DNA from: Polytrichum commune
Taxonomy: Eukaryota; Streptophyta; Polytrichopsida; Polytrichales; Polytrichaceae
DNA length: 64,000 nucleotides
Assembly: GCA_950295325.1 (NCBI GenBank)
Contig: OX485804.1
Location: 62,650,533-62,714,532, forward strand
Reading direction: 5' to 3'
How positions within the stretch are numbered: position 1 is the first letter of the stretch; each line of letters starts with the position of its first letter. The notes beneath the pieces were generated by a model that had not been told where the DNA came from, did no database searches, and saw only the letters and a list, made by a program, of their open reading frames with translations. Of the stretch, positions 9,165 through 59,220 are shown one piece after another. A program made the position numbers and the translations under genes.

Positions 9165-9183
9165 GCTTGCGTTCTTCCTGCGC

Positions 9184-9192
9184 AAACCCTAA
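9184..9192 (-). promoter_or_regulatory. Telo-box-like motif in the 5' leader
   Basis: AAACCCTAA on the plus strand (TTAGGGTTT on the coding strand) lies 20 nt upstream of the proposed ATG at 9164. Telo-boxes are common near transcription starts of plant housekeeping and plastid-protein genes. The position fits a 5' untranslated region; no TATA box is evident close by. Confidence 0.4.
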
Positions 9193-26248: not shown

Positions 26249-26256
26249 TTTCTCTC

Positions 26257-38046: not shown

Positions 38047-38367
38047 TTAGGCCCTTGCCAGACGACCGGCAGGGCTTTCTGCCGGCTTGGCTAGGCGCCT
38101 GGGTCTCATAGATGTGCCCCGTAGGAAGCTGCCTGCCACCGGCACCACACGACCGGCCCTGGCAGGCCGTCATCACCGGGTCGCCACGTCATACCCTGCA
38201 CCACAGCTGCGGCTTCCTCCAGCAGACCCACTCCAGCAGGCTTCCTCCAGCAAGCAGTCTGTCCTCCAACAGAGACCTCCAACAAACCCTCATCTCGCAA
38301 ACTTTCATTTTTTGATGCGAATTCAAGGCAGCTGCACCTCACATTAGCAATCTGGAACTCTCTCGTA

Positions 38368-39774
38368 ATGGATGTTGAGGTCCAAAGGCTCTTAACATGT
38401 CTTATATTTCAGCTTACTTTGTTCTCCACTTTGGAAACGTTCTCAAGAGATGAGGGAGCGCTTCTTGTTTGGCATTGGCAACAACTTTGTTGCTTGACTC
38501 TCGTGATGCAAGGATTGAAGAGACTTCAAGGAAGGCAGCCTCGACGATTGTGGGCACACGACCGAGGTTTGCACCGTCCCGGATTTTTTGATCAAAACTT
38601 GTTAGGGTCTTTTAATACGAGAGAGTTCAAAGGTCGAATGCGCATGGACGTGTCGAGCTTCGAATATTTGTGTAGCACTCTCGCGCCATTGCTACAGAGG
38701 CAAGATACAAACATGAGAGCTGCCATTCCAGTTCAGGTTGAGGTTGCAGTGTCGATATCGAGGTTGGCCACAGGCAATTCTATGCAAAACATTACAGATT
38801 TGTATAAAATTGGGCTATCTACCGGTCAACTTGCAGTGTCACAATTTTGTGGTGCCATTAAAACACTTTTGCTCAGAAAATTTATATGTTGGCCTTCAAT
38901 TGAGAAGATGGACAAGTTCGCCAAAGAATTTGAAAGCTTACATCAAATTCCATATGTCGTGGGAATTGTTGATGGTTCCCACATTCCAATTGTGGCGTCC
39001 CGTCTGCATGCCGCTGATTACTACAATCGGAAAGGTTTCCATTCCGTTCTCTTGCAGGGTGTTGTGTCAAGCACATGTTTGTTTTGGGATTTCGATATTG
39101 GTTGGGCCGGGTCGATGCACGATGCCAACTTGTGGGCAAGGTCAGACATCGGACAATTTTGTGAGGCCGGGAGATTGTCGCCTTACGCCCTAGTGGGGGA
39201 TGCAGCCTATCCTTGCCGGCCATGGATGTTGGCCCCCTTCAAGGGCCACAAAGATGGCCTCTCACGTGAAGAGTACAACTAGAACTACGCACAAAGCTCG
39301 ACACGCATGTGCATTGAACGAGCCTTTGGAATGCTAAAGGGAAGGTGGAGGATACTTTTAAAGAGGATTGATGTGCATTTGAGAAATGTTCCTGACCTAG
39401 TGGCCACATGTTTGGTTCTTCATAATATGTGTATTATTTTTGGAGACGGATTTTGGAAGAGTGAGTGGATGCAAGAGGCGACGGATGAAGTCCACACCGG
39501 AATGTCACACAACCTCGGTGCAAGTACATCCACACAAGAGAGAATAGTTGTGGCCAACCATGCCCTAGAGAGCTTGGCGGGAATCGATGAAAATGCACGT
39601 GAATCTTTGGAGTACAAAAAACAAGAAGCTGCAATGGAGTACGAGATCGCTATGAGCACCGATGGCAAGACATTCAAGGAACTTTGTGCGAGAAGAAATG
39701 GAATAGCAAGAAGCCTATGGATGGCCAAAACAAAAGCTTGTATTGCAGAAACATTTACAATGGATAGTGATTGA
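38368..39774 (+). pseudogene. PIF/Harbinger DDE transposase, one in-frame TAG
   Basis: Cuts and joins the element ends. The reading frame begins at ATG 38368 and is open to TAG at 39280-39282, then continues in the same frame to 39774: 304 residues, stop, then 163 more. The N-terminal third has a helix-turn-helix-like segment (ATGNSMQNITDLYKIGLST). The catalytic triad is all present: D202 (IVDGSHIPI), D278 (VGDAAYPCRPWM) and E at frame position 317 (CIERAFGMLKGRW). The stop falls between the second Asp and the Glu, so an ordinary product would lack the Glu. Total length without the stop is normal for the family. One nonsense change is the only lesion I see; it may be a dead copy or a sequencing difference. 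Confidence 0.92.
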
Positions 39775-39786
39775 CACGTAGTGCAC

Positions 39787-41455
39787 TTAAAGTTTTTCTA
39801 CCAACTTCTGCATAGTAGCTTGCATGCTCATCAATAAAGACATTTTCATGTCATCGCTCGCCTTTAAGCTTTCCATAAGAGTCATACTAGTCTCCCTAAT
39901 CTCCCCAATGCACCGTTCCATATACATGTCGTCCTTGCGCTTAGGTTCGGGGGACTTCAATGTGCTCTCCCGGCTTCGTGGCTCCGAAGTGTTAATGTCC
40001 GATGAAGCGTACGTATCGGACTTCGGGCCGTCGGGATTCACGGCGCTCGCGTGCGCATGAGAAACCACATTCGCCCTGTCATACATGAATTCATCCACGA
40101 GGGTGTACCACCGACACTTCTCCGATCGTTGCGACCCCGACTTCGAATTCATCGCCTTGTCCTCCTTGTAGTCGTTGTAGATGGCACTCCACTTCTTCCG
40201 GCATGCCTCGGAGTCTTTCGTGAAATCCGGGCACAACGACACCAACTTCGTGTGTAGCCGCGACCAATTGTCCACACCTGCAAGGGACCGCAATTGTGAG
40301 TGACAATGAAAATAGAGTATCAACCTATCCTTATTCCATAAATTCAATGTCATTCGTAAACAACATATACATAATGTTTTCCCTGCTGTACCTTCCATCC
40401 AAATGAACACCCAGTGGAAATTGAAAGACAACATGCAAGAGAAATATAAAAACAGCAGACCCAGGCAATGCGAATTGAGAAATTAAAACATTTCAGAGTC
40501 TGCTGCCTGCAGACTCGGAAACAATAGATTCCAGCACAGTCTGTTGTCTGCAGACTGTGGCCACATCAGCTTCCAGCCTCGAAAAAACAGAGTCTGCTGC
40601 CTGCAGACTCAGAAAGATAGAATTCCAGCACAGGCTGCTGTGTGCAGACTGTGCCTAAACCAGCTCGCAGCCCCGGAAATACAGAGTCTGCCATATTACA
40701 GCAGCAAAAACCAGATTCCGCTGCCCAGCAGCAGAAGAATAACAGACTCTGCTGCCCATCAGTAGGGTAAAAACAGAGTCTAATGTATTCGCGCAGAAGG
40801 AAAACAACCAATTCTACAAGTGCAGGGAAATAATTGCAAGAAAAAAACAAAGTGTGCTAGCGAACAGCAGGGAAAAAATTCTGCAGCCTAGCAACAAGAA
40901 ATGTGAACTATGTTATGATGGAAAGCTTGTCAGAAAGCAAAGAAGAAATCATTGAGGGAAAAAAAATTGTGAAAATAAATACATCCATACCTTGCTTGGG
41001 AGCTGCACTGAACGTGTTCTGCATCTCTCCACGGATGGACATGAGCTGGATCACCCAGTGATCCTTCCAGTGTCCCGCACTCTTCACAAGGTCCACGTCA
41101 TCTTTGGTGTCGTCCAATTCAACAATTTCAACTTTCTTGCGAGGAGCTCTCCGCTTCTTTTTGGGTTTGGATTGCTCCGCGCCGCATTCACTTGATACTC
41201 GTTTTTGCGAACCTTCCGTAAGGTCGATCGTCGTCGGTGTCGTGGCCTGGGGGGGAGGTGCGAAACCTGGTAATGCGGATGGAGGCATGAAGGGATGAGG
41301 AAACATGTACGGAACTTGATTCCCCAATCCGCTGAAGCCCTGGAAAAATGGCGAATGGGGAATGCTAGGCCGTGTCGAATAGAAGTCGTTGGCGGGAGCG
41401 TTGGGAGGTGCACCTGGGTTAACATTTGGGTCGCCGCTAACCCTTGGAAATCCAT
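39787..41455 (-). CDS. Harbinger-associated Myb/SANT-like DNA-binding protein (partner of the transposase)
   Basis: Two main exons on the minus strand: one ending at 40991 (donor AAG|GTATGG) and 40277-39787 (acceptor GCAG, stop at 39789-39787); phases agree. The N-terminus is rich in Pro, Asn and Gly (PNVNPGAPPNAPANDF), then comes a basic KPKKKRRAPRKK nuclear-localisation stretch. The trihelix-like Myb domain spans the intron, with its spaced tryptophans (HWKDHW, DNWSRLH, RKKWSAIY). The end is helical (KMSLLMSMQATMQKLVEKL). In PIF/Harbinger elements this protein helps import the transposase and bind the ends. The only good ATG (41455, MDFQG) is one base out of frame with the rest, so a one-base deletion or an undetected 5' exon is likely. 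The exact start is uncertain. Confidence 0.8.
40495..40700. repeat. Intronic tandem repeat with small palindromes
   Basis: Inside the intron of the Myb-like gene, units of about 46 bases alternate AGTCTGCTGCCTGCAGACT and CAGTCTGTTGTCTGCAGACTG, each able to fold on itself, with CAGCTTCCAGCC/CAGCTCGCAGCC spacers. About five units are recognisable, and related GAGTCTGC strings continue to 40790. Confidence 0.8.
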
Positions 41456-41956: not shown

Positions 41957-43379
41957 ATGTTGTGAGGTGATACTAAATTTCTAGTACATTATGAAATTAG
42001 TGCCACCAAAAGATCTAGGAAACATTGTTCATCTCGGTACTATCCATTGACATACTATTTATAGACGCCTTATTTATTGAAAGCACCGGCATTGTTCATC
42101 CTGACACTATTCTCTGACAAACATGTGTGTTTGCATTTTATTTTATTTTATTTTATTACTCTACAAGCACCTTAGAGCACACATTAATTTTTGGATCATT
42201 ATAATTGGTTCCACTATAAGGATCACGTGGTCATCCAAATGGACCATGTCACCAGGTTCAATATTTTAACATAAAATGGGAGAAAAGGGTTGAAACTATT
42301 GTCGCAACTAGTTTTGAGTTCATTTGAGGAGCTCAAGTGTACTAGAAAATGATTCCCACCGGATCATTATTGCGGCCCACACTAATAAGAGATACTAGTA
42401 TATCTCATTCACAAACTATAGAATACCTAAAAAATCTCTATCATATATACAATCCATTTTCACTTTCCAATGAGAGATTTTCAAAGAAAACAAATCAACC
42501 TTAGAATGTAAGTTATGATAATTTGACCATGCTACATATAAGTTGAAACATACATAAGAAACCATGGTTGTTTTTATATGGGACATGGGATAATATGTAT
42601 GGACTTCCGAGGAGTATTCATATAATAAAATATGGTCTTGAGTTCATGTTTAGAACAAATTATAACACATACGAAATGAAAACTAAAACATATATGACAA
42701 GGTTGATTGTTTATACATGATACACACCCAACATATTTTTGAATCAAGGTGTTTCATATCTCTCCAATATTCGATCTAAACATATCATAACCTTAAGTAT
42801 TGGGGTACTAGCACCTAGCTCTCGATTTCAAGGGATATTTACAAAGAACTAGAGGTTCAAGAGTCTAAGCATTGAGTGAGAAATGTAGAAGACTCTTTTG
42901 TGCAACATGCCAACCTTTTTTTTTCACTAGTATCTTTCTATTATCAATTTTGTAGCCTTTTAGAAAATGTTAGAAATTAGAGTCATCCCGGATTGGAACC
43001 CCTACACTAATTTCATGTCCAATTTGGTCACATGACTGCATTCTAGAAGTCTAATTTTTCTTATGTTGATAGTAAATAATACCTAAACATGAAAGAAAAC
43101 ACAAATATGGTCTACGTTTTGTATGAATGATTGTGCTACCTTTGCTATAAAAGAGCATCAAACTTTGCTTCCAATGTTTGATCTCCTTTGAAAAGGTAGC
43201 TTGAGGGTCAAATTTGAATAATACATGATGTTTGCTCCAATTGACTTATACATAAGAAAAATGGGCTATTTTACAATAGGGGTTAAAGCATAAACATAAA
43301 TATAGAGATACATAGGTTTCTAATTGATGTTGGCTCCAATATCAACATCAGTCTTGCTTTGCTTCAAGGTCATCGAAAC
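41957..43379. other. AT-rich DNA between Harbinger and copy B
   Basis: No gene. 42400-42720 shows weak similarity to 23800-24080 (AATATAAAATATGGTGTTGA-like strings), so the repeated segment may extend leftward in diverged form. Confidence 0.4.
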
Positions 43380-43816
43380 CTTACAATTGGCATACCTAGA
43401 GAAATCATCTCCCAGTCTCTTGCATTATGCCATGTTTCACAAATTATCATGATGTACCTTAATTGATATGCCATGACATAACATGTCTTTGGACGGTGCA
43501 TGACCTCAATTTATCAATGTCATTTTCTATGACTCACGTACATGGATAGCAATAATGCAAGCAACATTTGTCATGTGCAAGGTTCAAGGGCAAGCCCATG
43601 TGTCGTCTCACATCAACATTTTACTTGTTACCCATTGCTATAATATCATGTGAGGCTCTTGGCATCCTTGAAATTTAAATTATCTCTCTTCATGAAGAAT
43701 ATGAAATGACATGACATAACTATGGACAGTGCATGACCTTAATTTATCAATGTAACTCTCAATGACTTAGTCATTATACAATAATGCAAGCAATAGTTGG
43801 CAAGTGGAAGAGTTAA

Positions 43817-43832
43817 CCCTTAAAAGAGGTTG
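43817..43832 (+). repeat. piggyBac left terminal inverted repeat
   Basis: CCCTTAAAAGAGGTTG directly follows the TTAA at 43813-43816. It is identical to the reverse complement of 56251-56266. Sequence beyond 16 bases diverges between the ends. Confidence 0.96.
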
Positions 43833-44603
43833 CCCTCTGCGACAGAGCAGGTAGATTCTCGGTATTTTGGGGGGCAGGGTTAGGGTTTAGTCCATATGGA
43901 CCGGTATAGTTATGCCGATCAGAGACTAATTTTTTTGTCAAGTGGGCCCCGAAGTGTGCATGATACTGGTGAAGACCTTTCTGCAATTGGGTTTGATATG
44001 AATTACCCTGTAATTTTGGACTGCGGCCAGGTGCAGTGGGTCGAGGAAATTGGATACGTATACGAGACGTGTATATACGCTGTGAACAGGGGGGTTGCAT
44101 GGACGCCGTGCGGGGGTTGCGGGTCGTCCTTCGTGGCTGACGTGACACGCACCAGACAGTCCCCCGGTGACTTTGGTAACCGGGTCAGTATGTGAATGCC
44201 AATATGACGGATGTGTGTGACATCGTTCTAAAGGACTGCTGGCCCGGTGGACGAATGGGGAGAGGGTGTGAAGAGGTGCGGCACGTGGGGCCTGTCCCAC
44301 AACAACGGCTTCCCAACCGCGTAAATGTCCATGGAGTGCGGCAGGCTCTGTTTCGGTTACAAGTTTTGTGCTCATGGGATAAATGGAACATGGTGCGGAA
44401 ATTATACATTTATGTGCGCTAAACATTGTACATATAGCATGCCAAATTGGTCTTACATAGAAGGTCCACAAAAATCTTGCTATCCCACACACACAGATAG
44501 CCGCCCAATGCTGGAGTTATACTCGCTCTAACATATTAGGTGATACATCAGGCTGCCAAAACCTTCCCCGCCTCTGCGGCCTATGTACAGAGCTCATGTA
44601 TTC
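43833..44603. other. piggyBac left interior, unassigned reading frames
   Basis: Two plus-strand frames look moderately protein-like: 43896-44195 (..GFDMNYPVILDCGQVQWVE..) and a cysteine-rich one within 44325-44531 (CGRLCFGYKFCAHGINGTWC). A 184-codon minus-strand frame (43938-44492) overlaps them. None matches a family I know and no joining splice sites are obvious, so coding status is open. Confidence 0.3.
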
Positions 44604-44629
44604 ACAGTGGTATAAAGAGCCTAATTAGC
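44604..44629. repeat. 26-bp direct repeat, left of the B3 gene
   Basis: The sequence beginning ACAGTGGTATAAAGAGCC and ending TTAGC is repeated exactly at 46300-46325, 1,696 bases away. The pair brackets the whole B3 gene. Confidence 0.95.
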
Positions 44630-44789
44630 GTCACTTCTAGGCTTCCTCGGGAACTAAATGTGTCGATACTGTAGATGTCAGTTAGCACTGTCGACGGTGA
44701 CGAGTCCCAGTCCGGACTGCACAAACATGAAGAAAATACGACGCCTTCACATCCGTCTTCAGGGATTCGGCTCCAACGTCCTCCTTCGT

Positions 44790-45928
44790 TCAAACCTTGG
44801 TCACTTCAAATTCGACTGCTCCAGCCTTCGCGAACAACACCGAGTCGCCCAGCTTGAGTCTGTTGGCGGTGCAGAAGCCCGCCCATCCCTCAGTGAAAGA
44901 GCAAAACCTCTGCTTCCCGATTGTGTACGTAGCACTCTTCACCATCGATCCGGACACAGGGCCTCTGAGATAGTACCACATTCCATCGAACTCCTCATGT
45001 CCGTGTTTGCGCCAGTACACCACTGGGACGTCCTGCGCCCACCCAAATCAAGCTCTCACGGGATTGAGATGAAAGCACTCTCCGAATTGACAACGACAAC
45101 GGAACGACGGTGTTCCCAGGAATCCCCAAAACTTGCTACATGTTGCCGAAATAAAAAACAATTGGAAAACCAGCTTACAATTCGGCTGGATGCACACTTC
45201 TTTACGTGCGTCTTCCGAAGTTTCTTTTCGAAGTGCGGGCGGGCATCGCCGCGGACTTCGTGGACGCCGGGCCGAGGCGAGTGATCAGGACTAAGGTCGT
45301 CCACCTCTGGCTGCTCACGGGAGTCACACGCAAGGTGTGAGGCGTCCGGAAGCTGCTGAAAAGTCTGCGGTACTTTGAGAGCTGAGCGGCGGTGGATCCC
45401 GACCACGAGGCGTCTTTCATCTACTATCTCGAACGTCAATACCGCCCCGAGGCCAAGGCGCTGGTCACTCATGAACCTCGCCCACCCCTCGCCGATGCTC
45501 GCTGCGGACACCCCCCTGCGCATATCGGTGAGGAGGCGGAATCGTAACGGCCACTCCTTCTGAATGGCAATGGACGTCACCAACGCGCAATTCTCCGAGC
45601 GTGACCAGCCAGTTTCGGTAGTGAAGGTCGCAGGTATTTCCTGCGATTCACACAGACATCACTACCTATCATCGTGAGAACGACGAGCCTGACAACGCCA
45701 TGACCCTAGACTCACTACAAGCCCGCATGCCACCTGCAAACATACATACGCAAGCACACACGACAAGGGAGGCTTGAAACCGAAGTGCACACGCTAGGGT
45801 TTTAACAAACATAGAGTACATACCAGTTTGTACCGCTGCGCTTGAGATTTCACTGTGAGGGCGAAGTAGCATGCACCGGCTTCGTCCAGCTCCCGCAACA
45901 CCTCCGACCGACTCCATGAATCCGCCAT
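44790..45928 (-). CDS. B3-domain DNA-binding protein (REM-like), three exons, carried by piggyBac
   Basis: A plant B3 transcription-factor-type protein, expected to bind DNA in the nucleus. Exons 45928-45824, 45640-45179 and 45032-44790 join in phase 0 through GT-AG introns to give 269 residues with no lesion; the start ATG opens MADSWSRSEVL. The first B3 domain (about residues 20-110) reads FALTVKSQAQRYKLEIPATF, later EGWARFMSDQRLGLGAVLTF. A basic linker (KKLRKTHVKK, about 175-185) follows. The second B3-like domain (about 190-269) reads VPVVYWRKHG, FTEGWAGFCTANRLKLGDSV and ends FEVTKV. It lies on the same strand as the transposase, 3 kb downstream of that gene's end, inside a block bounded by 26-bp direct repeats. 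It may be a captured host gene or a true accessory gene of the element. The second domain is shorter and less typical than the first. Confidence 0.8.
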
Positions 45929-46299
45929 GGATAACGAGCGCAATGTCTTCAGGATCATCCACCAGGAGCGCCCAATATCCACCACTTGACCTCAGCATAC
46001 AACCACCCCGTGAGTTCTCAATGTCCTGACCTCGGCAGCAACAACTACAATTCTCGGTGAAAGGCAGAGCAATGTGAATCACGAAAAAGTGGAGAGGGAG
46101 TGGTAACCTGGGAGCAATGACGAGCCTGGGCTGACAAGTACACAGGGCTGGCAAGTACACAGGCCAGGGTTTAGCATTATTACCAAATCGCGGAGCGATC
46201 ACCACATCATCATGCACAACATGGTCACTTCAACCATCAGTGACCTTCACATGGTCGGCGGCCCATTGATAAACAAATCCACTTGAATGCTCCTCTGGT

Positions 46300-46325
46300 A
46301 CAGTGGTATAAAGAGCCTAATTAGC
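46300..46325. repeat. 26-bp direct repeat, right of the B3 gene
   Basis: Exact partner of 44604-44629. It lies 20 bases from the broken end of the cellulose-synthase fragment, so it may mark the junction at which the B3 block was joined in. Confidence 0.95.
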
Positions 46326-46345
46326 ATTCCAATGTACTTCATAAA

Positions 46346-47617
46346 AGATGTACTCACCTAGATATCCACATTAGCCAGCTGAGATGGTTCGCCTTCTTTC
46401 TCATACCTACAGACATGACCCAAGTTAGACATGAACGTGTAGTCACTAGTTCTGGCTATTGGCAGAAGATTGTAGACAAAAAGGCCATTTGACCTGCAGG
46501 TTTTAAAAGTGAGATTTGCTTTATCATATACAAAAAACAGACACCCTAAACTGAATGAACAGACTTATGTTGGACTCTATAAAATCCACAATAAGGATCC
46601 AAGGGTATTTGATGAACATTACTACTCACTGATTAGCAAAGTATGGTAGAACATAAAGCATTACCTACAAGCATGACAAACACAACGACAGGTTTACAGA
46701 AAGAACCTCGCATACCCAAACTGGGCAGCGTAGTGGAAAGTGAAACTGTAATTACCTGAGGGAAAGGCGGTCTAGGTAAGTCTCTCGGTTGATGGGTAAC
46801 CACTTTGGAAACTGATATAGGATCCAGGATACAGCAAACCAGATCTCACAGATGACAGATGTTAACCACAACCCATACGCCTCATTGACTGGGTTCAATA
46901 TGCGGTATCGGAAGAAGAAGCCTATTACTACAAGACGGATGACAATAATCATCATGTATGGATGAATCCTACTTGACGGAAACGGAACTCTCCTTGACTG
47001 TGGTTGCCTTGATTCATCCATTCTGTTGCAATCAAAAGCAAGGTCACAAATTTGATTTTAGTCGCAGTTCACAACCATTACAATCCACCAAAGTTAGCTC
47101 AAGAAATCCTCTAAGATTACTCCTGATTGAACATCACTTGAAGGTAAGTTCAGCAAGCTCCAGGTTTCAAAACAGAAAGATCCTACTTGAAGAATTAAAT
47201 CTATTAGACTAGTCTACATGTGTTTATAGTCATATGAAGCTGAGAAGCACGGCTGATATTATCCAACATAGGAAGTCTATGCCGGTGCAAAATATTGGTT
47301 GTTAACTGGTAACAAACCAGCAGATCGTACACACTCTTCCATCTATGGAGGTAGTATGCACATTAGATGGAATTTTTTCTGCTGATATGTGTAAACACAG
47401 TACAGGCATGATCTATACAAAGCAGTGCAATCTCTTAGCAGACGATAGAATTCACCTGGGATGCTACTATCAAGGTAAGGGATCGGATGAACCCTCTTTC
47501 CGCCCCCTGCAATCTGTGGAAGGACAAGAGCATGGTGCTCAGGTGAAGTTGCATTGGATTCACTTGTTCCAGAGACTTGCATTGAGGACATTGTCGCACT
47601 CATGAGGACAAGGCACT
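46346..47617 (-). pseudogene. Cellulose synthase (CesA) gene fragment captured by piggyBac
   Basis: Three exons of a plasma-membrane cellulose synthase are recognisable with their introns. 47617-47456 carries EHHALVLPQIAGGGKRVHPI from the variable region before the membrane part. 47022-46756 carries [12 protein letters not shown], then the first transmembrane segments [19 protein letters not shown] and [18 protein letters not shown], then [19 protein letters not shown]. 46406 onward reads YEKEGEPSQLANVDI, then an in-frame TAG and VST before homology stops near 46346. The exon that should lie between the first two (..DPTKDLAAYGYG..) was not found. The invariant ILDQFPKW reads ILYQFPKW. The RING finger, the catalytic D,D,D,QxxRW region and the remaining transmembrane helices are absent. 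Retained introns show capture of genomic DNA, not of a messenger copy. Confidence 0.9.
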
Positions 47618-48928
47618 CTGAAATTGGCAAACTGGTTTAATTACCACTACTCAGACTGGACCTGGTTCAGACATTTCTATCAGTGATGTGTGTAAGTGTT
47701 CAATTAGTGTTCAATGCCTGGGATCAGAATAAGCACACGTGATTTCGAAACAGTTACAGACCTCCAGGTGAAGTAACCCAAAAGCTGGGAGTTGGTAAAT
47801 TTATGAACATATATTTGCATGAACTCATTTAACAATACTCCACAAGCAAACTTAGACTTGGTAAACTTCAAATGTGGAGGAATTGTATCAGATCACTAAT
47901 TGCATACAGGTGGATGCACCTGCGCCCGCGAATTGTTTTGCTTAGAGACCGACCAAGGTATCTGAATAGCACTCCCAAGAAAGTGTGACCCCCCTATCGA
48001 TCACCTGCAAAATACTCACACAAATTGGCACTAAGAAGCTGGTAAATCCTTGCACAACTTTCTCTGCAATTATCCCCAATTAAATCGTCCTTAAATCCCA
48101 AGTAAATGGTCTGCTAGTATCACATTCAGACGACCCGGTCTCGTCCAGGATGACCTTCACATCCACGCCGGTCTCTCTCGAGAAATGGGCAGACGTGGCC
48201 TACACGCAATTTGCCTGCACAGATTTTACAGTCCCAAAAAGTCAGTGATAGGGAGTTGTTCAGATAGCAGGAACAATTCATGCAACCTAAGAAAGGGCTT
48301 TCACAAAGGCTCTGCCTCGAGGTTGGCACTGGGACGGCGAATAGCATAAAGCCATCGTCACTCCGTTTGTGAACATAATAGATGAAACTCCAAAAACAGA
48401 GCACAAGATGCAGCATTTACAATGTTGAGCATTTACAAGCAGAGACGACGGCCTATGACATGGTCGCGACAGAGGACGGGCTGTGATATGGAGTTACAAA
48501 AAATTCTGACAGTGGAAGCTCGAACTGCAGGAAAAAAAATGCCAGTGTTCCTATACTGCATGTGACCAAGGCCAAAATGTTTCCTAAGGGAGTCCTGAAA
48601 CGCATCGACCTCCACAAAAAAATTCGGCAACTGATGTTGAGGACCACAGGTGCCTGTACATCTACGAAAAGGCTGGTAGTGAACGGGTCTACTTCTGAGA
48701 CCAACTGTCATGTGTAATTTCAGTTCATCAAAAACCCCGTCCAGGTTGAGGATACTCAAAACGATCGCCGGCGGAATCGCGGTGGAGAAGATTGCCCGCA
48801 CTGGCTCTTCGCGGAGTCCACGCCAACGCCGAGATCCAAATCTGCTTCCGCCCACATCCGCTGCAAAGCTCCTTCCTGTTACAACATTCTTCCAGCATGT
48901 TAGATGCGACACTTGCATCGAAATATAA
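47618..48928. other. piggyBac interior: unassigned, one 193-codon minus frame
   Basis: 48433-49014 (minus) is open for 193 codons and overlaps the end of the transposase in another frame. The part beyond the transposase stop (GLREEPVRAIFSTAIPPAIV.., ..LPNFFVEVDAFQDSLRKHF) looks more protein-like than chance but matches nothing I recognise. 47640-48430 shows no convincing exon; further degraded CesA introns may be there. Confidence 0.35.
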
Positions 48929-51742
48929 CTATAACCTCTCGTGTTGTGCCTGGTAACATGATTCCGGGCACATCCACTTGTTTCCGCAGGAGGTGCAAAA
49001 CCACTTTTGCACACGGCCGCAGATCACACATCCTCGCTTTAATTTGGACCGCCGTAGTGTGTGGACAGGGTGATGGCGTCGAGTTCTGCGTGCAAGAGGG
49101 ACTTGCTGTCTTTGGCGGGCCTGTATTGCTTCTGTAGCAAGGTACTTGCCGACGGCGATCTTGAATGCCAGGTGTGAGGTGACGGGCAATCCGAGGTCCT
49201 CCATTTGCTTCACCCAAGTGACATAGGCGTTCACCATCGTCTGGTCCACAATGAGGTGAAAAATTTTCACCCACCACTTGTGGCACCGAAGCTGTGACGA
49301 ATAGTTGCCACGGAGCTGGTCCGTCACGTCAACTCCGCGCATGTACTCGACGTACTGCCGGTGCATGGGAGACGATGGCACCACCAATTGGCCTTGAAGG
49401 CCGGGTATTCGTCGGAGCACCTTACTGTTCGGCTCCCAAGGTGCAGCCGCAGTGCTCAGCAATGTCACCAACTTCTTGTCTTGCCAAGAAACAACGCCCA
49501 TTTGTCGATGGACGTGATTCCAGATAATCATGGATCCCCTCACGGCGGTGTCCGGGTCCCGATAGAGTCCACCGGGCAGATTTTTGCTTGTGCGGCGCAC
49601 GGTGCCCGTGGCCCATATCCCCTTGCACATGAGCTCATGGAAGAGGTTCACGCTTGCAAAAAAATTATCGATAACCAAACAGTGGCCCCGGTTTTCAAGA
49701 CCCTTCACCATCCGTTCGACCACGTGGTATCCCAACCCGTGAGGCCCCGCCCCTGTTCCTTCACCAAAATACACCTCCATTTGCCAAACAAACCTGCTCT
49801 TCGAGCTCGCCAACAACCAAACCTTAATCCCAAACCTTACAGGCTTGTCCGGCATGAATTGCCTAATGAAACAGTAACGCCCTTTGTAGGGGATGACACA
49901 CTCATCCACAGTTATCTCCCTCTCCAAATTATAAATATCCTTGGAAACGTTTACAAACATTTCTACAAGCCATCTTGTCTTGGCAATCCGATCAAACAAT
50001 GGGTCAGACACATCCCTCACTATACTGTTGTTATCCACTAGATGCAAACAACGCATGATCTGCTCCTACCTCTCTAGCGACATGATGGACGAGATGAGCG
50101 GACAATACAGGAAGGGTTGGCTACGCATCCAATACTGCCTCACGCTTGGGAGACGTTTGCACCCCATGAGGATACAAATTCCCAACCAACCCCGAATGTC
50201 GCATCGATTCACATCCTTCCACGTCCGTCCACCCTTTGTGTGTGGCAACTCATTCTCCACAGGAGGCAGAACGGCCCTCGCATACCTGTTGGTCTCAAGT
50301 ACAATTCGATCCACACAGGCATCAGTCCAGTACAAATCAAAAACCGTATGTGGCTGAGGAATTCCTTCTGGTCTAGGGGACTTCAAACCTGGCGCAGGGC
50401 CCGTGAAGTTGTCACGGGTTCTAACAAAATCCACGCTGGCAGAGTTCCAGGATTCCTTCCTGTAGTATTCAGCAAGTTCATCACTCTCCATGTGGACTGG
50501 CGTGAACGAATCCGGTGTCATGCACCACTGCTCTAAACCAGGCGCCATGTGCTCACTTTCATCTAAGTTATCAACATCGAAGTCCGAATCCGAGCTCTCC
50601 AAGGTATCACAGAACTCGGGGAGCCACTCCTCGCCACTAGAGTCCGCCGACATCATTAGCATTTCCGCATTACCGCCGGAGTGTATAGAAGTGTTAGAGC
50701 ATTGCATGTATTCTGGCAGCCCAATACTTACCTTCGGAAAAGTGTCCCTGGCTGTCGAGTCCTGCGTACCGTCGACCCCCTCAGTATCGGAGGGGGCATC
50801 GTAATCTGCAATGGGGAACTCATGTGGAACACCGGGTGTCACCTGCGCATCAAGGTTTTCAGCCACCTGCTCCGTTAGACCAGGGTCGTTGCCACTCCCC
50901 ACTCCGCTTGCAGATCCCCCTAAAAGCTCCGTGGCACTCACTCCCGCGACTGCACCAGCATAAACACCAGCCGAGTCAGGTGCAGGGCTGAAGCAGTGCT
51001 GCCTCTTCCACCAGCCGTAGCCATGTCCCCCCTCACTACCGTAGGCGCGAGCGTGCGGCCCATCTGCAACTCTTACGCTCTCCTCGTTTAGGTGGCACTC
51101 CATGTCGTATCCCCCTAGGTCGCACAACACCATCCGCTTCCCAGTCGCGGCATGCACACCCTCCCCGATGACATCCCCTTGCGTCCAAGATGGTGTGTCG
51201 CCAGTGTGGAACGAAAGCTCGGATAGAAACCTATTTGGGACTAGAACAACCCACCCTGCCCGCCTGCAACTCCACTGCACATACGTCCCTTGGAAACGGT
51301 CCGGCATAACACCGACCTCGAGAAGCACCGGCCTCTCCAAGGATCCGCCTGGGTGTGTAGCTCCAAAGCCCGTGTGCTTCGAAATAGGGGCTGCTGACCT
51401 CCAAGCGTCGTCGCGGAACACAGACTCCCAAAGGTCGATATTTACGGTATCCATGTTGCCAACGGAATGTTGCCCTTCAGGCGCCACAAAGTCTTCAAGG
51501 CCCTCGTACCCACCATAACTCGCCAACACCTCGTAGATCGCGTCGTCGTTCAGCACTTGCTGCTCATACATCGCCACTGTCCTTGCCAAAGCTCGCGTTC
51601 GAACACCGTCGGTGAGGTTAGGCTGGGGTGTTGGCGGCAACCATGCACGCGGCCTCCTCGGCTTGGAGCGCAACAGCTTCCCTTTCTCCTCCTTTGTGCA
51701 TCTTCCACTTGGAGCCCGCTGTCCACCTGTGCAGCGACGCAA
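48929..51742 (-). pseudogene. piggyBac transposase (DDE_Tnp_1_7 family), one in-frame TAG
   Basis: Excises and inserts the element at TTAA. The frame is open from 51742 to TAG at 50068-50066 and continues in the same frame through the ATG at 50056 to the stop at 48929: 558 codons, stop, then 378. The long N-terminal part has a basic stretch (KLLRSKPRRPR) and an acidic one (DTLESSDSDFDVDNLDE). The family domain begins around TVFDLYWTDACVDRIVLETN. Numbered from the ATG at 50056, catalytic residues are D51 (ITVDECVIPYKGR), D130 (LVIDNFFASVNLF) and D243/D246 (MRGVDVTDQLRGN). The C-terminal zinc-binding cysteine-rich domain has C343, C346, C354, C357, C363 and C367. Spacings fit the family. The single TAG (SLER*EQIMRCLH) lies in the conserved domain before D51. 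The 5' end is probably spliced, so the true start is unknown; the first internal ATG is at 51571. Confidence 0.93.
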
Positions 51743-54700
51743 GTGTCAGGAATCTCGAAATATATAGGCACACCTGCACATCCAACGCGACTAAACCAGC
51801 AACAACCACATTTTGCATGTCGTCAGCCAAGTTCCCCCAAGTGCACCCTTATTGGTAGAATTTACATGCAAGGTAGACAAATCAGGAGCGGTATGTGCTG
51901 TGAAGACACCATCGGGGAGATGCTACAATTCTGCTGAGACTAGTTGCGGCACTATTGACGTAAGATGGGACATTCCAGTTAGTGTTGTTTGGTGAAACTT
52001 GGACACGTTGCAATATACCCAACGATGCCCAGCCATGTCAGTGACGTGTTGAGCACATTCATAAGAGTTTTCAGCAAGCAGAAAAACGATAAATGCGCAA
52101 CACATCATTCTCCTAGTATTTGTCATCCTGCATCTTTCTCGCATTAGAGCAGTTGAAGCCTGCAAAATGGAGGGTTTGACTGTTGTATCTGTGGCATATC
52201 CGGCACTTTTTAGACTGAGAACCTGTTTCACCCTTCAAGTCTTATTGGGTTTGTGACTTGTTCAATAGGCAATATGTCTCATCTATACCCAGTGGTACTA
52301 AATATCCTTGGGACATCATTGTTCAGTTGGGAGGTCAGGTGAATTTTCGCCAACGATCCTTATACTGTCTCAATGCTCTGAAGCGTGCAATAAAATAATA
52401 AACAGAGTGCATGCTGCCTATGCTGTTGTAAACTCAATCAAACTTCCAACCACACTTCATATGTTGGCGTCACAATTATGTGCTGAACTGTGTCCCCGGG
52501 TGAAGAGTTATATATAAAGAAGTTGGTCTCTGCAAATTGGTCTATGTTATGTTTATACTAAACTGGGAAATGGGTTGTAGACATTGAGCAAGCTGTAGAC
52601 AACACGACATTGAAGAAGCTAAGTGCCCGATTGATTGTACGGCAATACATGGGAGGATTCATACTCCATCCGAGCAGCTCAGATCAAAGATTCTGAGAAG
52701 CTGCATATTGCGGAGATTATCTACACATGTCTCACCACGTTGGCGTGCAGGTGTCGAATCAGGGGGGGGAGGTCCGGATTCGTTTCCCACACCGCTCTCC
52801 GGCATGGGAGTCTGCAGCATGGGCGACAGATCCTGCAAACCGCAATCCGATGTGGTCACCTTCTTCGACCTCGATGACCTTCGAGGTTTCGGCGTAGTCT
52901 CCCCCAACTCTGCGAACGCCTCCTGATGTTGTTCCTTCATCGGGCGCTTCAAGCTTGGTTTGGCAGTCGTCCAGGGTGGCTGCGTGCACTGGGCAACATC
53001 GACTGCCTCTGCTGCGCCCCCTTCGTGAACCTGGAGCAACGGACCCACAACCACCTGCAGAGGCTCCGAACAGGACAACGGAACAACGCTCAAAATTTTT
53101 AGTGTCAGGCACGACTTAATCATGCAACAACAACTATCAGGAGGCACACAACTACTCGGTGTAAGCAAAAAACCAATTACCTTCTTCGCCCTGGCCTTCC
53201 GAGTAGGCTTTGATTTCGTGATTGGCTCGACATTCTCCTTCCCACTGTCCTGACCTATCCCGCACGTATCCTACAAGGTGTTCCACGACAACAAACAGTT
53301 ATTACGAATTATGTGGATCACACCTATTTCTCTGACATCACAACACGCATATGATTGTGTGCAATCAATGTACAGGGGAACAGTGGTTTAGGAATTTGCA
53401 ACCACTACCTTGGTCTGCAGAGGCACTCGCGGGTTCAGTGGTGGCCCTCTGCTCTCGTCCGCCGTGAGAGGAAGGCATACTTCCGCCTGCCATTTCTCCT
53501 GGCACGCAATTACATGACGGGAAAGAGTCAGTTGCCCACCTCCGCGCATATCTCAAACACCCAAAAACAGAGTAAGTCAGATAATCAACGGAGATTGACG
53601 AAATGTACCAAAGACGAGCAGTAATCCCTTTCAAAACACTTGTCTCCAGGTTTGGGTCAGTTCCCGTGCAGGCCGTGCACAGTGATGACCGGTTACACAT
53701 ACACAACGAGGATATATAGAGTATGTAACAACATGGCGGTCGTGATTACGTGTATGCAGGAGCTACGAGAATTTTTCCTACTGCATTGGATAAATGACAA
53801 GTTGGGGAGATTTCGGTTGCACATGTGGTCCAATAGCATAATCAGAGAGCTGGTCAGATGTGTGTGCGATTCAGCAACTCTGAGAGTGCCGGAATTGAGG
53901 TTAGTCGGCATAATCCACGTCCAAGTACTACGACCAGCAATTACAGGTTCCACCCTCTAAACCTCAAAGCGACTCATATAGATTATGAGTTGCTCGGTAC
54001 TGATGTGTCTTAACATCGAATGCCGGAAAGGAGATGTGGCAAAAGAGGATTTGCAACCACATGCACCAGCTATACAAAATCTCTCCTCAGAAGATCATCT
54101 CTGCAGATATTTGGCATCCATCAGGCATACGTGGTGGCAGCCATAGCTTACACAAACGAATATGACGTGAAGAATATCGGATCAATGAACCCATATGGCA
54201 TAGAGAGTGACCCCGAACTGATGGGTGGCAACATTCTATAGATGTCACGGCCACTTCGAAGGCGGGTCGAGGATGCGAAGAAAAGTCTTCAAATAGTCGT
54301 TAATTTGCACAAGCGAGAAGTATTGCAGATATATCAAAAGCAGCACAACACACAGATGATTGTCTACATATGGTTGTACTTACCACAAGGCAGCAACAAC
54401 GTGCAGGGCAAGTGCAGGTGGACATCATAGACATTACCTTGGTCTGCAGTGGCACTCCTTGATTCACTGGTTTCATCAAAGTCTGAGCAAACACCATAAA
54501 CTCAGAGCACAAATAGGTGTTGGACTCCAAATTCCGCACGCTACCAATATGGCCCAACTGTACTTACGAATTCACCGGGCAATAACATCACCCCCATACC
54601 CGCCGAAAGAGATGATGCAGGGGATATCAGGTTTCAACAAATAGGTTTCAACAAGTTCTCACTAAGAACCTTTAACCGAGAGTGAAAATAGGTGCCGGAG

Positions 54701-56250
54701 TCCAACACTACCAAGATGACCCAACTATGATGCAATTCCGGAAAGAACAGTACTGGTGGCACCCTTCGCCGTCGAAGATGGTGCAGCTGACCCCCGAGCG
54801 AAACACAGGATTCAACATAGGATTCTCAAATCTCACTTAAAATCCATAAACCCACAGCGCGTATTGATGTGAGAACGATAATGACATCACCCTTACCCAC
54901 AGATTTACATGGTGAAGCACATGATCTCTTCCCACAGCGGAGAAGGAAGAAAGCACACCACATGCATACATCGAAATATAAACAGTAGCAGGAACTAAGA
55001 CAAGTTACAAAAACACACATGATGTTCTTGTCGATGTCGACCCGCCGATGTTGGTCCAGGGATCATAGCTTTTCCCGGCGATCACTTCAAAGACACCTCG
55101 CCCTCACCAACGTCACTCCCCCCACAGAAACCCAAGAGAAAATGGCCGCACTCGACACATGCTCGGGGACTTACCTGCGTAGTGCTGATCGGGGTCAGCG
55201 GCGATCGATCCCGCATGTGTGTCGGCTGCGATCCTCCCCGAGCCATCCTCGCGAGGCGCTTCATCCCTCCCTCCTTCAGTGAGAAAAACGTGTCCACGTA
55301 GAATGCCCGTCACAATGTCGGGGAACCTCCTGCGCTCGCACCAACCAAGAATTCGAGCCGCGTGCCTGTACCACAGATAGCGGCACCGTTCTTGGATCCC
55401 AAATGTGCCTCTGCGATTCCACCGGCTCGGGCGTGGCTGTGCCAGCAGTGTGCTCACATCAAGGAGCCCAACCGCCCGTGCTGCGCCTTCCTCCGAAACC
55501 CCCTGCCTTGTGAACCACAAACACAATTCAGACTCCAAAGAAATGCGGTTAGCGCTCTCCCAGGTGTTTCTCCTCTCCATGTATACTCGACGCACGCGGT
55601 GAAACGAACTTGGATGTGCAACCACGGATCAGCTGCAGAGTTTGAAAAGGGCAATAGGACAATCCGCCGCAACCAAAGCCTCTTGTTCACAATCCGGAAC
55701 TCCATTTCCCCCCTCTCACAAAACCCAGTACCACAGACGTGGTGGTCACGATCGCAATAGCCACACTACAACATCAAAATCGCTAGCCACACTATCACAT
55801 CAAAATCGCCGGCGCCATGACGTCCGGTCTGCACTCAACAAAACACCGAGATCTACAAGAACCCTAAACCTGGAGTGGAGAAGGTGGAAGGCGTTGCAAA
55901 AGCGGGGGAATGCCCTCGCGAATGGATGTGCCACACGAGCGTGTCCTCCCAACGACCACGACCGGAGGAGGCGGTCACCAACGGCCTCATGATAGTGCGC
56001 TGCGTCACCACGAGGACCGTCCCTGCTGGCCCGTATACGTCTATAGTATTCGACAAGAAAGCGTAGAATACACAAAAATGCTCACTTATGTCGACCCCGA
56101 CATCGCCACACGGCTCCGAAAATTCCAAGAAAAATCTTGTAGGTTGCCTCTGGGTATTGCCGACATCTCCGTAGTTTGGAGTCAGCTCTGAATCGGTGAA
56201 GACAGTTCACCTCCAGCCCTAATCGGTGCACCGTAGGCCATATTGGCTCA
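51743..56250 (-). other. piggyBac right part: candidate 5' exons, gene not resolved
   Basis: Several minus-strand open stretches end at good donors. 55625-55175 (RYLWYRHAARILGWCERRR.., ending CACTACGCAG|GTAAGT), a stretch ending near 54437 (..SRSATADQ|G) and one ending near 53410 (..PASASADQ|G) show the same ADQ|G donor end twice, i.e. a local duplication. 53263-53182 (..TKSKPTRKARAKK) and about 53090-52740 (KPKPRRSSRSKK-type basic runs, ..PESGVGNESGPPPPDSTPARQ) follow. They could be upstream exons of the transposase or of another cargo gene. I cannot join them in one phase and recognise no domain. 51750-52650 holds nothing I can support. Confidence 0.35.
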
Positions 56251-56266
56251 CAACCTCTTTTAAGGG
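56251..56266 (-). repeat. piggyBac right terminal inverted repeat
   Basis: CAACCTCTTTTAAGGG, the exact reverse complement of 43817-43832, directly followed by TTAA at 56267-56270. Confidence 0.96.
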
Positions 56267-59220
56267 TTAAAGGACAAGCCTCTACAACACCTTGAAATAA
56301 CAATGTCCTTATGACCAATAGTTGCAATGTCGCGTGAATATTTTGGCATGCCCAAAAATATTTCAATCGTATTTCAAGTAATATATCCCTTAAAATTCCT
56401 AAATGCATACCTGTTGGTAGCCCCAAAATGATCTTGGAAGTCCATTTGTGAGTTTCAAACCTTTTGACAATTGTTATGGCCAAGCCTAATATGTTGACAC
56501 CCAATCCAACCATTTATATGTTTGAAGCATAATTTAAGCAATAAATGACCCAACACATTTTCACTCATCCAAGCATCTCGTGCTAGACAATTTTAATGTT
56601 TATGCGATGAGGTGTAAAAAATGGAGATATTGTTTCACCTTGATTTCATATCAAAATTGATACTTTTTAAGGCTTTACATTGATTTTTGTAAGACGACAA
56701 TAGAAAGGTAGTAGAGAAGCCACATATATTAGGCATTTAGGGTTAATAGATGTGACACATTATCATATGAAAATGGTAGCTACATATAATAAAAAAAGAT
56801 TAGGTTTGTATTTGTTTCTCTCTCATTGTGTCATCCTACCTTCTTTGATACTTTTATCATCATACACATTACAACTTTATTCAATCCAAGATTATAGCTA
56901 TGTATTATGAGGCAAAAATAGAGGCATGCAAGAAACGATGACATACCCAAGGAAAGTAAAACACATGCAACCATGATCTAACACAAGAAACCATGTATAT
57001 AGATGGCCGAGATTGCTCACTACATACTTGAAGTTGATAGCAGGGGTCATGATTGTCCATCCGTGCGCACATGGCCTCATAAGTTTTGGTGTCAATTTCT
57101 CACCCGTTTTTGAAGGTTCATACTACTCATAGATCCTTGCTCTCATTGCTTGTTGTAATTAAGATTCTAAATATTCATCCCCCCTCCCCCCCCTCATCTA
57201 ATGATCCAAATGGAATAAGACCCATATTAAGAGACAATGAGTTGTAATTTGCTTTCTCCTCTCAACAACACAATAGTGTTTACCCCCCCCCCCCTAGGAC
57301 TTCAATTTTCTCTCGCGAAGGATTGGAAATACGTAGAAATGATTTCCGGGAAGTGAAAATAGCATCTCAATGCTAAGTGGGTACATGTGCATAGAATGAG
57401 ATTCAAATCCATATCCTTCCATCCCAAAAGATATACTTGCTATGCTCACTTATTCTTCGCGGAGATGTGGTAAACCACTATATAAAGAAAAACCTTAATA
57501 TGAAAAAAAGAAGCCGAAAGTCTTTGGGAACACAAAACCTTATTACCGTGGAATATTACAACATTGGATCATTACTATAATGGATCATTATAACAATGGT
57601 GTAACGATTAAACATTACCAACATAATTTTTAATGGAGAGATGGTATCACCCGAATATCAACATGTGTCAAAATCTTGTAGTGGCATGGGTAGGCATCGT
57701 AGATAATAAAAGAATCATGGGGTTAGGCACACAATAGATGTTGCCTCTAATTATCAACATTATCTTCACTTTGCGTCAAAGTCATCCCAACCTTACTTGC
57801 AAAGTTGGCAAATCTAGAAAAATCTTCTGCAAATCTCTTTCATTATTGCCATCTTTCACAAGTTATCATGATGTACATGACTGACACGACCCCAATTTAT
57901 CAATGTCATTCTCAATGACTCGGTCATATGTATGGATGGCAATAATGCAAGCAACAGTCATCATGTGCAAGGTTCAAGGACAAGCCCAAGTGTCACCTCA
58001 TATCAACATTTTACTTATTACCTAATGTTATAATCTCTTGTGAGGCACTTCACATGCCTGAAATCATAGTTATCTCTCGTCATGAAGAACATGACATGAC
58101 ATGACATGATTATGGACGGTGCATGGCCTCAAATTATCAATGTCACTCTCCACTACTTAGTCATTGTAAAAAATGACTAAGCATCCTCCCCCCCCCCGCT
58201 CCCTCCTAAATTAACAATGTTGTCCATTTGATATTGTCATAAAAAAGAAATGGGAAATCCTCATTGTGGATACCCATACAACATCCAAAAAACGACAATG
58301 GCATACCAACACTGCTCTTAAACCACTGAACTCTAGTTAATCCCTAAAGGACCGAAGGGCCAAATTTGACTTTTTGCACAGTTGTTTTTTGGTCCATAGA
58401 TTTTGTCTCTCCTCTGTCTTAGAGCCACATACAAATATATATACATTAGGGGATCAATCTTCCAAGCCTTTCTCTTCTAGCTAGAAACAAAAGTCATTTG
58501 ATATTTAAAAAAAAAAATTTAGCTAACAAAAACATAGTGACGTTTGGGTTTTTTTGGACCCACTTTTAGACATTTTGGAGGCGTTTCGGCATCAAGCCAA
58601 GTAAACATGGATATGTCCAATTAATTTTATGATGGGCACATTTTTGTTTTTAAAAAACATTGTTTGTTTCTAAATATGTGCATTGTCTTATCTACCCCTT
58701 GGATTTGAGTACTTGGGACATGTGTTTTTTGTGGAATGAATTTCTCAAGTCAACCCATATTTGACATCCGCCCCAAAGCAAGCCTAGGGAACCACATTAA
58801 ATAACTCCAAAAGTAACTCTTTCCTTCTTGTAGATGGGCTAAACTCACATGTGAAGGTCTAGAAGGAGAAAGATCACCTCGAAAACAATAATGTGATTAT
58901 CAATGAGGCAATACCAACCAAACACTAGATTTGAACATCCCATAGATTATTCCATCATTGGGTTTTCACACCCTGATCTCAACAGTCAAAACGTTCTCAA
59001 ATAATTTAGGAAAAACAATATTAGCGCCCTCAATACTACTATATCTAATCCATGAGGATGGTTTGGGGAAAAACAATCCTAAACTAACACCACTTTAACG
59101 TGCATAATTTAAAACATAAAAATTGTTGTGAATTCAACTTTGCTCTAAACATGGTCCTTCAAGGGTTAATCAATAAGTTCACCTCAAAATGCCTAAGACA
59201 AGTCCAAAGTCTATGCCCTC

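Follow-up and report, generated by a model that had tools for sequence, protein, structure and literature searches.

The window analysed here, a 64-kb stretch of the Polytrichum commune genome, contains a piggyBac insertion of 12,450 bp at positions 43817-56266. Its 16-bp terminal inverted repeats, CCCTTAAAAGAGGTTG on the left (43817-43832, plus strand) and CAACCTCTTTTAAGGG on the right (56251-56266, minus strand), are perfect and are flanked by a TTAA target-site duplication (43813-43816 and 56267-56270); in the inverted-repeat listing, where they form the first of two entries for the region, the 20-nt arms are 100% complementary. When joined, the flanks align across one TTAA to a paralogous empty site within the same window (25141-25327, plus strand); the junction is free of gaps, and the left flank has a single one of 17 nt. 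Inside the insertion, PF13843 (DDE_Tnp_1_7) is matched on the minus strand by two pieces in one frame (E 6.9e-50 and 2.3e-12). The exact ends with their TTAA duplication, the piggyBac transposase and the empty site, all claimed in a preliminary description of this DNA, were thus confirmed.

The genome was searched with the element ends, using TTAA plus the end as pattern and allowing at most 2 mismatches. This gave 49 matches compared with 3 for the reversed pattern; 13 of the 49 had no partner by the pairing used and are outside the copy counts. Among the 19 copies examined, 17 have both ends, starting CCC/CCY, with TTAA on each side (size range 0.84-33 kb), and 15 have a transposase match. 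The 13 copies that are both two-ended and transposase-bearing span 7.5-33 kb, in agreement with the earlier suggestion of a lineage of large plant piggyBacs. Four copies have no transposase, three short ones (0.84, 1.6 and 3.9 kb) and a longer one of 18.3 kb; those of 3.9 and 18.3 kb retain exons of the B3 gene described below. Among the grounds named for doubting the first interpretation were much shorter elements that share the ends but have no cargo; short copies do exist, but all three also lack the transposase. The copy at C6:37.9 Mb derives by internal deletion from that at C6:41.6 Mb (identity of 100% in a stretch of 1,671 bp and of 99.95% in one of 2,086 bp), which together with the empty site argues that the family has been mobile. 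We regard the window interval as a member of a piggyBac family of low copy number, with a predicted cut-and-paste DDD transposase and TTAA as target, in a plant that PsaB also indicates to be a moss. Four ORFs from inserts in the 33-kb copy (C7:6.70 Mb) were compared with Pfam; two were unmatched and one had a match under the cut-off. The fourth is a repeat array, no stretch of its own being matched in Pfam.

The DDE_Tnp_1_7 domain lies in exon 5 of the transposase frame, ORF2 (48929-51726, minus strand), where an in-frame stop at 50066-50068 separates the two Pfam pieces. The transposase of the window copy is thereby broken, and intact copies (approximately 1,120-1,130 aa) are present elsewhere in the genome; ORF2 is broken in 5 of the 9 gene models of this family (family 1). 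The Asp residues in VDECVIPYKG, VIDNFFAS and GVDVxDQ are invariant in 10 aligned copies and align with piggyBat 9c0f, and we take these three to be the catalytic aspartates of the piggyBac transposase. The Cys-rich C-terminus, CxxCGRxQKWxCxxC...CPExCYQ, is likewise kept in 10 aligned copies. Median dN/dS is 0.066 for the transposase core and 0.149 for its N-terminal part. Two other piggyBac families of the genome (families 2 and 3), with ends starting CCCCTAA, have DDE_Tnp_1_7 at E 2.6e-80 and 4.1e-67 in Pfam.

A second gene on the minus strand is predicted to encode a protein of 269 aa with two B3 domains, from exon 1 with the start codon (45824-45928), exon 2 with the first B3 domain (45179-45640) and exon 3 with the second B3 domain and the stop (44790-45032). 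In the window copy the B3 matches are weak to moderate, at 30.4 and 28.7 bits against the curated Pfam cut-off of 30.1; the copy at C4:10.5 Mb scores above it (33.4 bits) and two more below (19.7 and 23.8 bits). B3 exons are matched in 15 of the 19 copies examined (the last exon in 15, the middle exon in 14) and in 13 of the 15 transposase-bearing ones, the copies at C7:20.35 and C2:67.12 Mb giving no match. In trees of 11 copies, B3 and transposase are in well-supported conflict only over the window copy, and the B3-matching loci found outside the family number 3, at 30-35%. The gene thus travels with other copies, and its original description as load captured by this copy was rejected in favour of a resident gene. 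Median dN/dS is 0.228 and 0.322 for the two B3 domains. An unpaired end match at C7:18.66 Mb adjoins a B3 match at 60%.

It is conceivable, if rather improbable, that the B3 gene is a passenger, captured once from the host in the ancestor of the family and without any role for the element. B3 proteins are common plant host regulators, two transposase-bearing family-1 copies have no B3 match, and none was found in families 2 and 3 among the copies examined, so some plant piggyBacs can do without such a gene. The retention of the exon structure in many copies, a median dN/dS of 0.23-0.32 and the congruence of the B3 and transposase trees, except over the window copy, nevertheless argue for a gene maintained with the element. 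We prefer a resident gene whose twin-B3 DNA-binding protein probably acts on the element's own DNA, through activation or anti-silencing, much like VANC in VANDAL elements. Binding to the element ends is not supported by k-mer counts in the subterminal 600 bp, where a few motifs lie above simple block shuffles but the signals are weak and come from related copies.

The transposase gene itself would have five exons and encode two proteins in overlapping frames, ORF1 first and the transposase from a start approximately 316 nt later in the +1 frame. Exon 1 (55175-55580, minus strand) contains the ORF1 start codon at 55580, the conserved ORF1 domain and the ORF2 start codon at 55264; exons 2 (53409-53498), 3 (53181-53270) and 4 (52736-53030), all on the minus strand, are read in both frames, with the ORF1 stop near 52761. 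In total, approximately 540 nt (180 codons) are read in both frames. This predicted second protein, the most unusual feature of the element, is absent from the preliminary description. Gene models were made for 9 of the 15 transposase-bearing copies, the other 6 not being fully matched by the anchors and several of them decayed or interrupted; splice sites were predicted from the sequence, and exon 2 was fixed at 90 nt in the modelling script. GT follows this exon in 8 of the 9 models, and 70 of the 72 splice ends are GT or AG, with one GC. The remaining donor, at C7:5.6 Mb, lies 6 nt past the position fixed by the script. Exon 1 has a length of 1 mod 3, and exon 3 of a multiple of 3, in 9 of 9 models. 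ORF2 starts with MKRLARxARGxxQ at an ATG in 8 of the 9 (7 aligned), and in 6 models ORF1 is 284-289 aa long and has a KRxRxS tail; in one it has 275 aa without this tail, and in two its sequence is frameshift-altered. Exons 3 and 4 are fused in three further copies, and frame B runs through in all three.

ORF1 combines a conserved, helical domain at the N-terminus with a C-terminal tail that is basic; its block has a median dN/dS of 0.326, a value that includes part of the dual-coded sequence and a dS of approximately 1, near saturation. Pfam gave no family for the ORF1 domain at E 0.01 or better (one member matched DUF6885 at E 0.089), the best match among PDB sequences had E 0.86, and with two poor AlphaFold models (pLDDT 57 and 64) Foldseek found no fold match below E 4. 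Scans for relatives returned none for ORF1 or the transposase in viral_contigs and none for ORF1 in genome_contigs.

Outside family 1, 18 of 20 ORF1 matches lie upstream of a same-strand transposase match. The +1 offset is common to all three families, and the start 310-316 nt downstream recurs in families 2 and 3. At further ORF1 loci, several of which are near-identical and hence not independent, a +1-frame ATG is found at 310-316 nt in 10 of 14; the frame is then open to the end of the fetched piece in 6 and has an early stop in 4. The second ATG is absent in the other 4, one of which (L048) is otherwise little decayed.

The shared +1 offset would also be expected if ORF1 and the transposase were one fused protein, whether through a programmed +1 ribosomal frameshift or through a splice that changes frame close to where the ORF1 domain ends. 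This domain would then serve as the transposase's DNA-binding N-terminal domain, and exon 1 joined directly to exon 5 would likewise be in frame. We consider such a fusion unlikely, because the second ATG is conserved together with its MKRLAR start, the ORF1 frame is still open far beyond any shift site, reaching a basic tail and a conserved stop, and in the C6:41.6 Mb copy the ORF2 frame opens just one codon before its ATG. A simpler variant, in which the ORF1 domain is the in-frame N-terminus of the transposase via exons 2-4, was rejected since the phases differ by one, which is accounted for by the second, +1-frame ATG.

Coding in the overlap was examined by synonymous-codon shuffling of 7 of the 9 modelled family-1 copies, the 2 frameshifted ones being excluded. 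When ORF2 was kept, the fraction of trials with an open ORF1 frame was 0.0001-0.0027 across all 7 of these copies and 0.0002-0.0019 across all 3 copies tested from the two other families. In the converse shuffle, with ORF1 kept, the ORF2 frame was open in 0.12-0.65 of trials, so its openness alone proves nothing, and the case for ORF2 in the overlap is made by conserved protein sequence and exon phases. That just one frame codes and the other is open through composition is very unlikely: the sequence is GC-rich and the ORF2 frame often survives ORF1-keeping shuffles (12-65%), but the ORF1 frame survives the reverse in at most 0.27%, the third frame has 5-11 stops, and residues are conserved in both frames.

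The window copy is a hybrid whose left and right parts derive from different element lineages, as indicated by the conflict between the B3 and transposase trees and by the break coordinates. Its left module (43817-46302) is 82.5% identical to the copy at C3:16.78 Mb, of the other lineage, and its right module (47902-56266) is closest to C7:6.70 Mb (88% over the transposase region and 83% at the right end). At the join are a 26-nt templated filler (46300-46325, plus strand), identical to 44604-44629, and a 1.55-kb CesA-like fragment (46350-47900, minus strand) that matches a host locus on another chromosome (C1:70.70 Mb) at 91% identity. The name CesA was given by eye from the translation, as in the earlier reading, and the 101-aa ORF has no Pfam family. 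A CesA gene common to the family was rejected, as no other fetched copy aligns there. The idea of a gene-capturing lineage draws on this single host fragment, present in the window copy only among those examined. That an assembly error, or the nesting of two unrelated insertions, produced the interval is scarcely credible: its halves come from different lineages with host DNA between them, but it has a single perfect pair of ends, one TTAA duplication and one empty site, and its gene order is common to other copies.

Taken together, we give a probability of roughly 0.75 to a two-gene family, with overlapping ORF1 and transposase and a resident twin-B3 gene, of which the window holds a hybrid copy with a dead transposase. 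Both proteins of the first gene most likely come from one spliced mRNA, ORF1 from the first ATG and the transposase by ribosomes that pass it (leaky scanning). Since the context of the first ATG varies, being weak in family 1 (pyrimidine at -3), with G at -3 in family 2 and good in family 3, such scanning is not uniformly favoured; one extra ATG lies between the two starts in 8 of the 9 family-1 models, and three in L033. ORF1 is most likely an accessory or regulatory DNA-binding partner, and intact copies elsewhere could move the window copy in trans. A broader scenario, which we put forward tentatively, is a plant piggyBac lineage with one mRNA and two frames overlapping by 390-550 nt, in which the spacing of approximately 310-316 nt is fixed so that scanning sets the ratio of the proteins; one branch would have acquired a B3 protein directed at the element itself, for its shielding or activation, letting large copies persist as many diverged lineages, several of them intact, in one genome.

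Eukaryotic DNA transposons are usually described as one protein per DNA stretch. A dual-coding region of approximately 180 codons, laid out alike in three diverged families, would give a cut-and-paste element a novel means of coupling a transposase to a partner and of fixing their ratio. IS3 (OrfA/OrfAB), PIF/Harbinger (Myb-like protein and transposase) and En/Spm (TnpA/TnpD) are two-protein systems with an accessory DNA-binding protein. The IS3 family uses a -1 frameshift; all three families of the moss have an offset of +1, and their ORF2 starts at a separate, conserved ATG. Harbinger and En/Spm are not known to use overlapping frames of such kind.

PiggyBac, familiar chiefly as a genetic tool and as an animal element with a single protein, would gain a plant branch with extra proteins testable for activity and silencing effects. 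The moss family resembles piggyBac of Trichoplusia ni and piggyBat in DDE_Tnp_1_7, the three Asp aligned with 9c0f, the Cys-rich C-terminus, TTAA and CCC(T/C) ends; it differs in a far longer N-terminal part, the second overlapping protein, the twin-B3 gene and the size of 7.5-33 kb. Animal piggyBacs measure 1.23-9.51 kb and "contain single ORFs" according to PMC10813416. Teratorn, a piggyBac fused to a fish herpesvirus, is also a giant piggyBac-related element (PMC6431247), but the moss element has a plant host, and none of the ORFs submitted to Pfam matched a viral family. Among plants, a fern repeat table has 1,230 PiggyBac entries (PMC6890710), and of the two occurrences of "piggybac" in PMC10619864 the one shown in the excerpt is "piggybacking". 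No plant piggyBac with a second ORF or B3 gene was found among the top 4-20 titles and abstract openings listed per search of open-access PMC, subscription papers and Repbase being outside this search.

VANC, the protein of Arabidopsis VANDAL elements, is not known to be a B3 protein, in difference from the moss one. VANDAL is, according to PMC5735166, a Mutator-like plant DNA transposon with a resident accessory gene for sequence-specific DNA binding; a VANC-type anti-silencing role of the B3 protein, with binding to motifs in the element, is putative here. Finally, Pack-TYPE elements such as Pack-CACTA are described, in PMC13317346, as two related elements joined with host DNA trapped at the join; the text of that paper has 0 occurrences of piggyBac. 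The window copy likewise has a host fragment (46350-47900) between its ends and is a two-copy hybrid at the captured DNA, but it is a piggyBac with a 26-nt templated filler and a matching host locus on another chromosome. Break repair with template switches, or the hybrid-element route of Pack-TYPE elements, would be expected to leave such a join. Since the breakpoints and the filler can be read, as can a close relative of the donor, the mechanism of capture is testable.

We report that the window copy (window 43817-56266) is a genuine insertion; it belongs to a known superfamily, piggyBac, and its organisation is unusual. The preliminary description, which gave the ends as TTAA with perfect inverted repeats, was right on this point: as read directly in the window, TTAA is followed by CCCTTAAAAGAGGTTG at the left end (43817-43832), and the exact inverse of CCCTTAAAAGAGGTTG is followed by TTAA at the right end (56251-56266). 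Moreover, the joined flanks align across a single TTAA to window 25141-25327, which is the empty paralogous site of this copy. The flanking sequence is repeated locally, with numerous copies in the neighbourhood on contig C2, where the window lies (C2:62650533-62714532); the assembly comprises 408 Mb in 64 contigs, of which seven are chromosome-sized (the size of C5 being inferred from match positions), and C8 was taken as the plastid because psaA- and psaB-like genes adjoin there. The best matches of the PsaB protein are the chains 8htu, 6l35 and 7ksq of Physcomitrium patens (1,701-1,705 bits, vs 1,667 for the next), so the host is probably a moss. Diverged local repeats flank the window copy (window about 24300-27600, 43300-43800 and 56300-58200) and are also present on C43, a small contig, and at C2:62.67-62.82 Mb. 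A Harbinger-like pair, with a DDE_Tnp_4 ORF on the plus strand (E 1.1e-16) and a Myb/SANT-like match below the cut-off (E 0.00057) on the minus strand, is positioned at window 38125-40482 in a stretch of raised GC.

A search for TTAA plus the end sequence, allowing at most two mismatches, gave 49 matches genome-wide vs three for the reversed pattern. From loci with pairing ends, together with two transposase copies having one recognised end, 19 copies of this family (family 1), including the window copy, were examined, and their sizes range between 841 bp and 33,267 bp. Two ends with TTAA on each side are present in 17 of them; in the remaining two the second end is altered in one and was not found in the fetched stretch of the other. 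The transposase is present in 15 of the 19, and the 13 two-ended copies that carry it span 7,468-33,267 bp. In eight copies its long exon has no interruption across 931-952 aa, but the full modelled protein is complete (1,123-1,132 aa) in just four of nine modelled copies. In the window copy, a stop codon at 50066-50068 breaks the frame. The median dS between transposase cores is large (0.84; 105 pairs), yet ends and duplications are mostly intact, which suggests many diverged lineages, each fairly recently inserted. A copy of 3.9 kb derives from another by internal deletion (100% identity over 1,671 bp and 99.95% over 2,086 bp), which is a sign of recent movement. The GC fraction of family 1, short flanks included, is 0.46-0.53 (0.42 in one copy), and in the window outside the window copy it is mostly below 0.42, though a few bins reach 0.50.

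The notable result of our analysis is an overlapping second protein, ORF1. Comparison of copies using tblastx gave conserved blocks far 5' of the transposase, beyond the transposase itself, and the long transposase exon lacks a conserved start codon, conservation starting at a CAG/GTGG acceptor. Donors and acceptors of four upstream exons were taken from the alignments. Across the nine copies modelled, GT or AG stands at 70 of the 72 splice ends; the exceptions are a GC donor after exon 1 in the copy at C7:6.70 Mb and an exon-2 GT located 6 nt further on in that at C7:5.6 Mb. Exon 2 was fixed at 90 nt in the models, and using the GT 6 nt on in the C7:5.6 Mb copy gives an ORF1 of 287 aa and an ORF2 of 1,123 aa. 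Counted from its ATG, exon 1 measures 394-409 nt (1 mod 3 in every model). Exon 3 has 84-99 nt (0 mod 3), and exon 4 has 286-298 nt (1 mod 3) in seven of the nine and is shifted in two. Read in frame A from the first ATG, ORF1 has 284-289 aa in six copies, with a KRxRxS tail plus two residues, and 275 aa in a seventh, and is altered by frameshifts in two. ORF2, the transposase, is read in frame B (+1) from an ATG at nt 316, or at nt 304 in a single copy that carries a deletion; its start, MKRLARMARGGSQP, is nearly invariant, with ATG there in eight of nine models (seven aligned). The dual-frame stretch is about 540 nt (509-551 in the seven copies tested). Three additional copies show a fusion of exons 3 and 4, through which frame B continues in every case. 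Part of exon 2 is seemingly duplicated upstream (window 53403-53442 and 54432-54471), also in two other copies.

The openness of frame A was assessed by replacing frame-B codons with random synonyms according to each copy's own usage. For seven family-1 copies, with 20,000 trials per copy and exon 2 of C7:5.6 Mb kept at 90 nt, frame A stayed open in 0.0001-0.0027 of the shuffles; the fractions were 0.00185, 0.00095 and 0.0002 for L031, L032 and L033, which are loci of two other piggyBac families (families 2 and 3) in the same genome. In the converse shuffle, keeping frame A, frame B was open in 0.12-0.65, so openness alone gives no support for frame B; that it is likely coding rests on the conserved protein sequence, the exon phases and the fused copies. 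ORF1 starts in a weak context in family 1, which is not the case in family 3, and between the two starts most copies of family 1 contain one additional ATG. Leaky scanning, our preferred mechanism for ORF2 translation, is therefore unproven.

Families 2 and 3, with transposases about 50% and 41% identical to that of family 1, have the same ORF1/ORF2 arrangement, overlapping without introns. In L031, L032 and L033, respectively, the starts are 310, 310 and 313 nt apart, the overlaps are 386, 524 and 392 nt, and ORF1 has 232, 278 and 235 aa, with KRAR or KRPR near its end. These elements are 5.6-6.3 kb long, with ends starting CCCCTAA and TTAA on each side, and no B3 match was found in the copies examined. 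Among 14 further ORF1 loci, some near-identical, ten have a +1-frame ATG at 310, 313 or 316 nt, the frame being open to the end of the fetched piece in six and stopping after 20-113 codons in four; of the four lacking this ATG, L039 and L050 are stop-broken, L052 is cut short and L048 looks otherwise little decayed. A same-strand transposase match lies downstream within about 5 kb for 18 of 20 ORF1 matches outside family 1, based on a transposase search that scored 109 of 219 candidates. L033 (1201-7172) and L034 represent a second, recently active family of 5.97 kb, the two copies being 99.85% identical over 5,982 bp.

The conserved part of ORF1 is about 105 aa, with the motif W...Q.V...LD...L..LPRP..W...RYLWYR.AA.ILGW..R..FP, and is predicted at low confidence to consist of helices only (pLDDT 57; 64 with 25 sequences). 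No credible relative was found in Pfam, PDB sequences or a fold search, nor any in IMG/VR or GTDB scans. By analogy, ORF1 would likeliest be a DNA-binding or assembly partner.

The window copy also carries a gene on the minus strand encoding 269 aa with two B3 domains (exons 45928-45824, 45640-45179 and 45032-44790, with inferred phase-0 joins). The preliminary description regarded this gene and a CesA-like piece as captured cargo; the latter is captured, while the B3 gene is resident. B3 exon matches are present in 15 of the 19 family-1 copies (13 of the 15 with the transposase, two without it), and trees of B3, transposase and ORF1 (11 copies) share well-supported groups, the window copy excepted. 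The two B3 domains have median dN/dS values of 0.228 and 0.322, compared with 0.066 in the transposase core; hence the domains are constrained yet faster-evolving than the core. B3 matches outside family 1 are distant (30-35%; three loci). Thus the gene is native to family 1 and probably serves it, and VANC of VANDAL elements (PMC5735166) is its nearest working analogy.

As for the exception in the trees, the B3 gene of the window copy groups with those at C3:16.78 Mb and C4:10.5 Mb (support 1.000), and its transposase with that at C7:6.70 Mb (1.000), as does ORF1 (0.798). Similarity to the left lineage stops at 46302, a 26-nt stretch at 46300-46325 is identical to 44604-44629, CesA-like host DNA follows at 46350-47900 (91% to C1:70.70 Mb, a locus with about 340 nt extra in the middle), and right-lineage similarity starts at 47902. 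Such a structure resembles the outcome of break repair in which the template switched between two copies of the element and a host gene; an alternative origin of the hybrid is the Pack-CACTA route from two neighbouring elements (PMC13317346). Finally, the copy at C2:24.0 Mb (L001-L002) has about five nested repeats, each roughly 970 bp and 94-97% alike, and the 33-kb copy at C7:6.70 Mb has a long array that repeats about every 96 nt (L022 about 8060-10000, L023 about 1-1920), one stretch of which is open over 361 codons.
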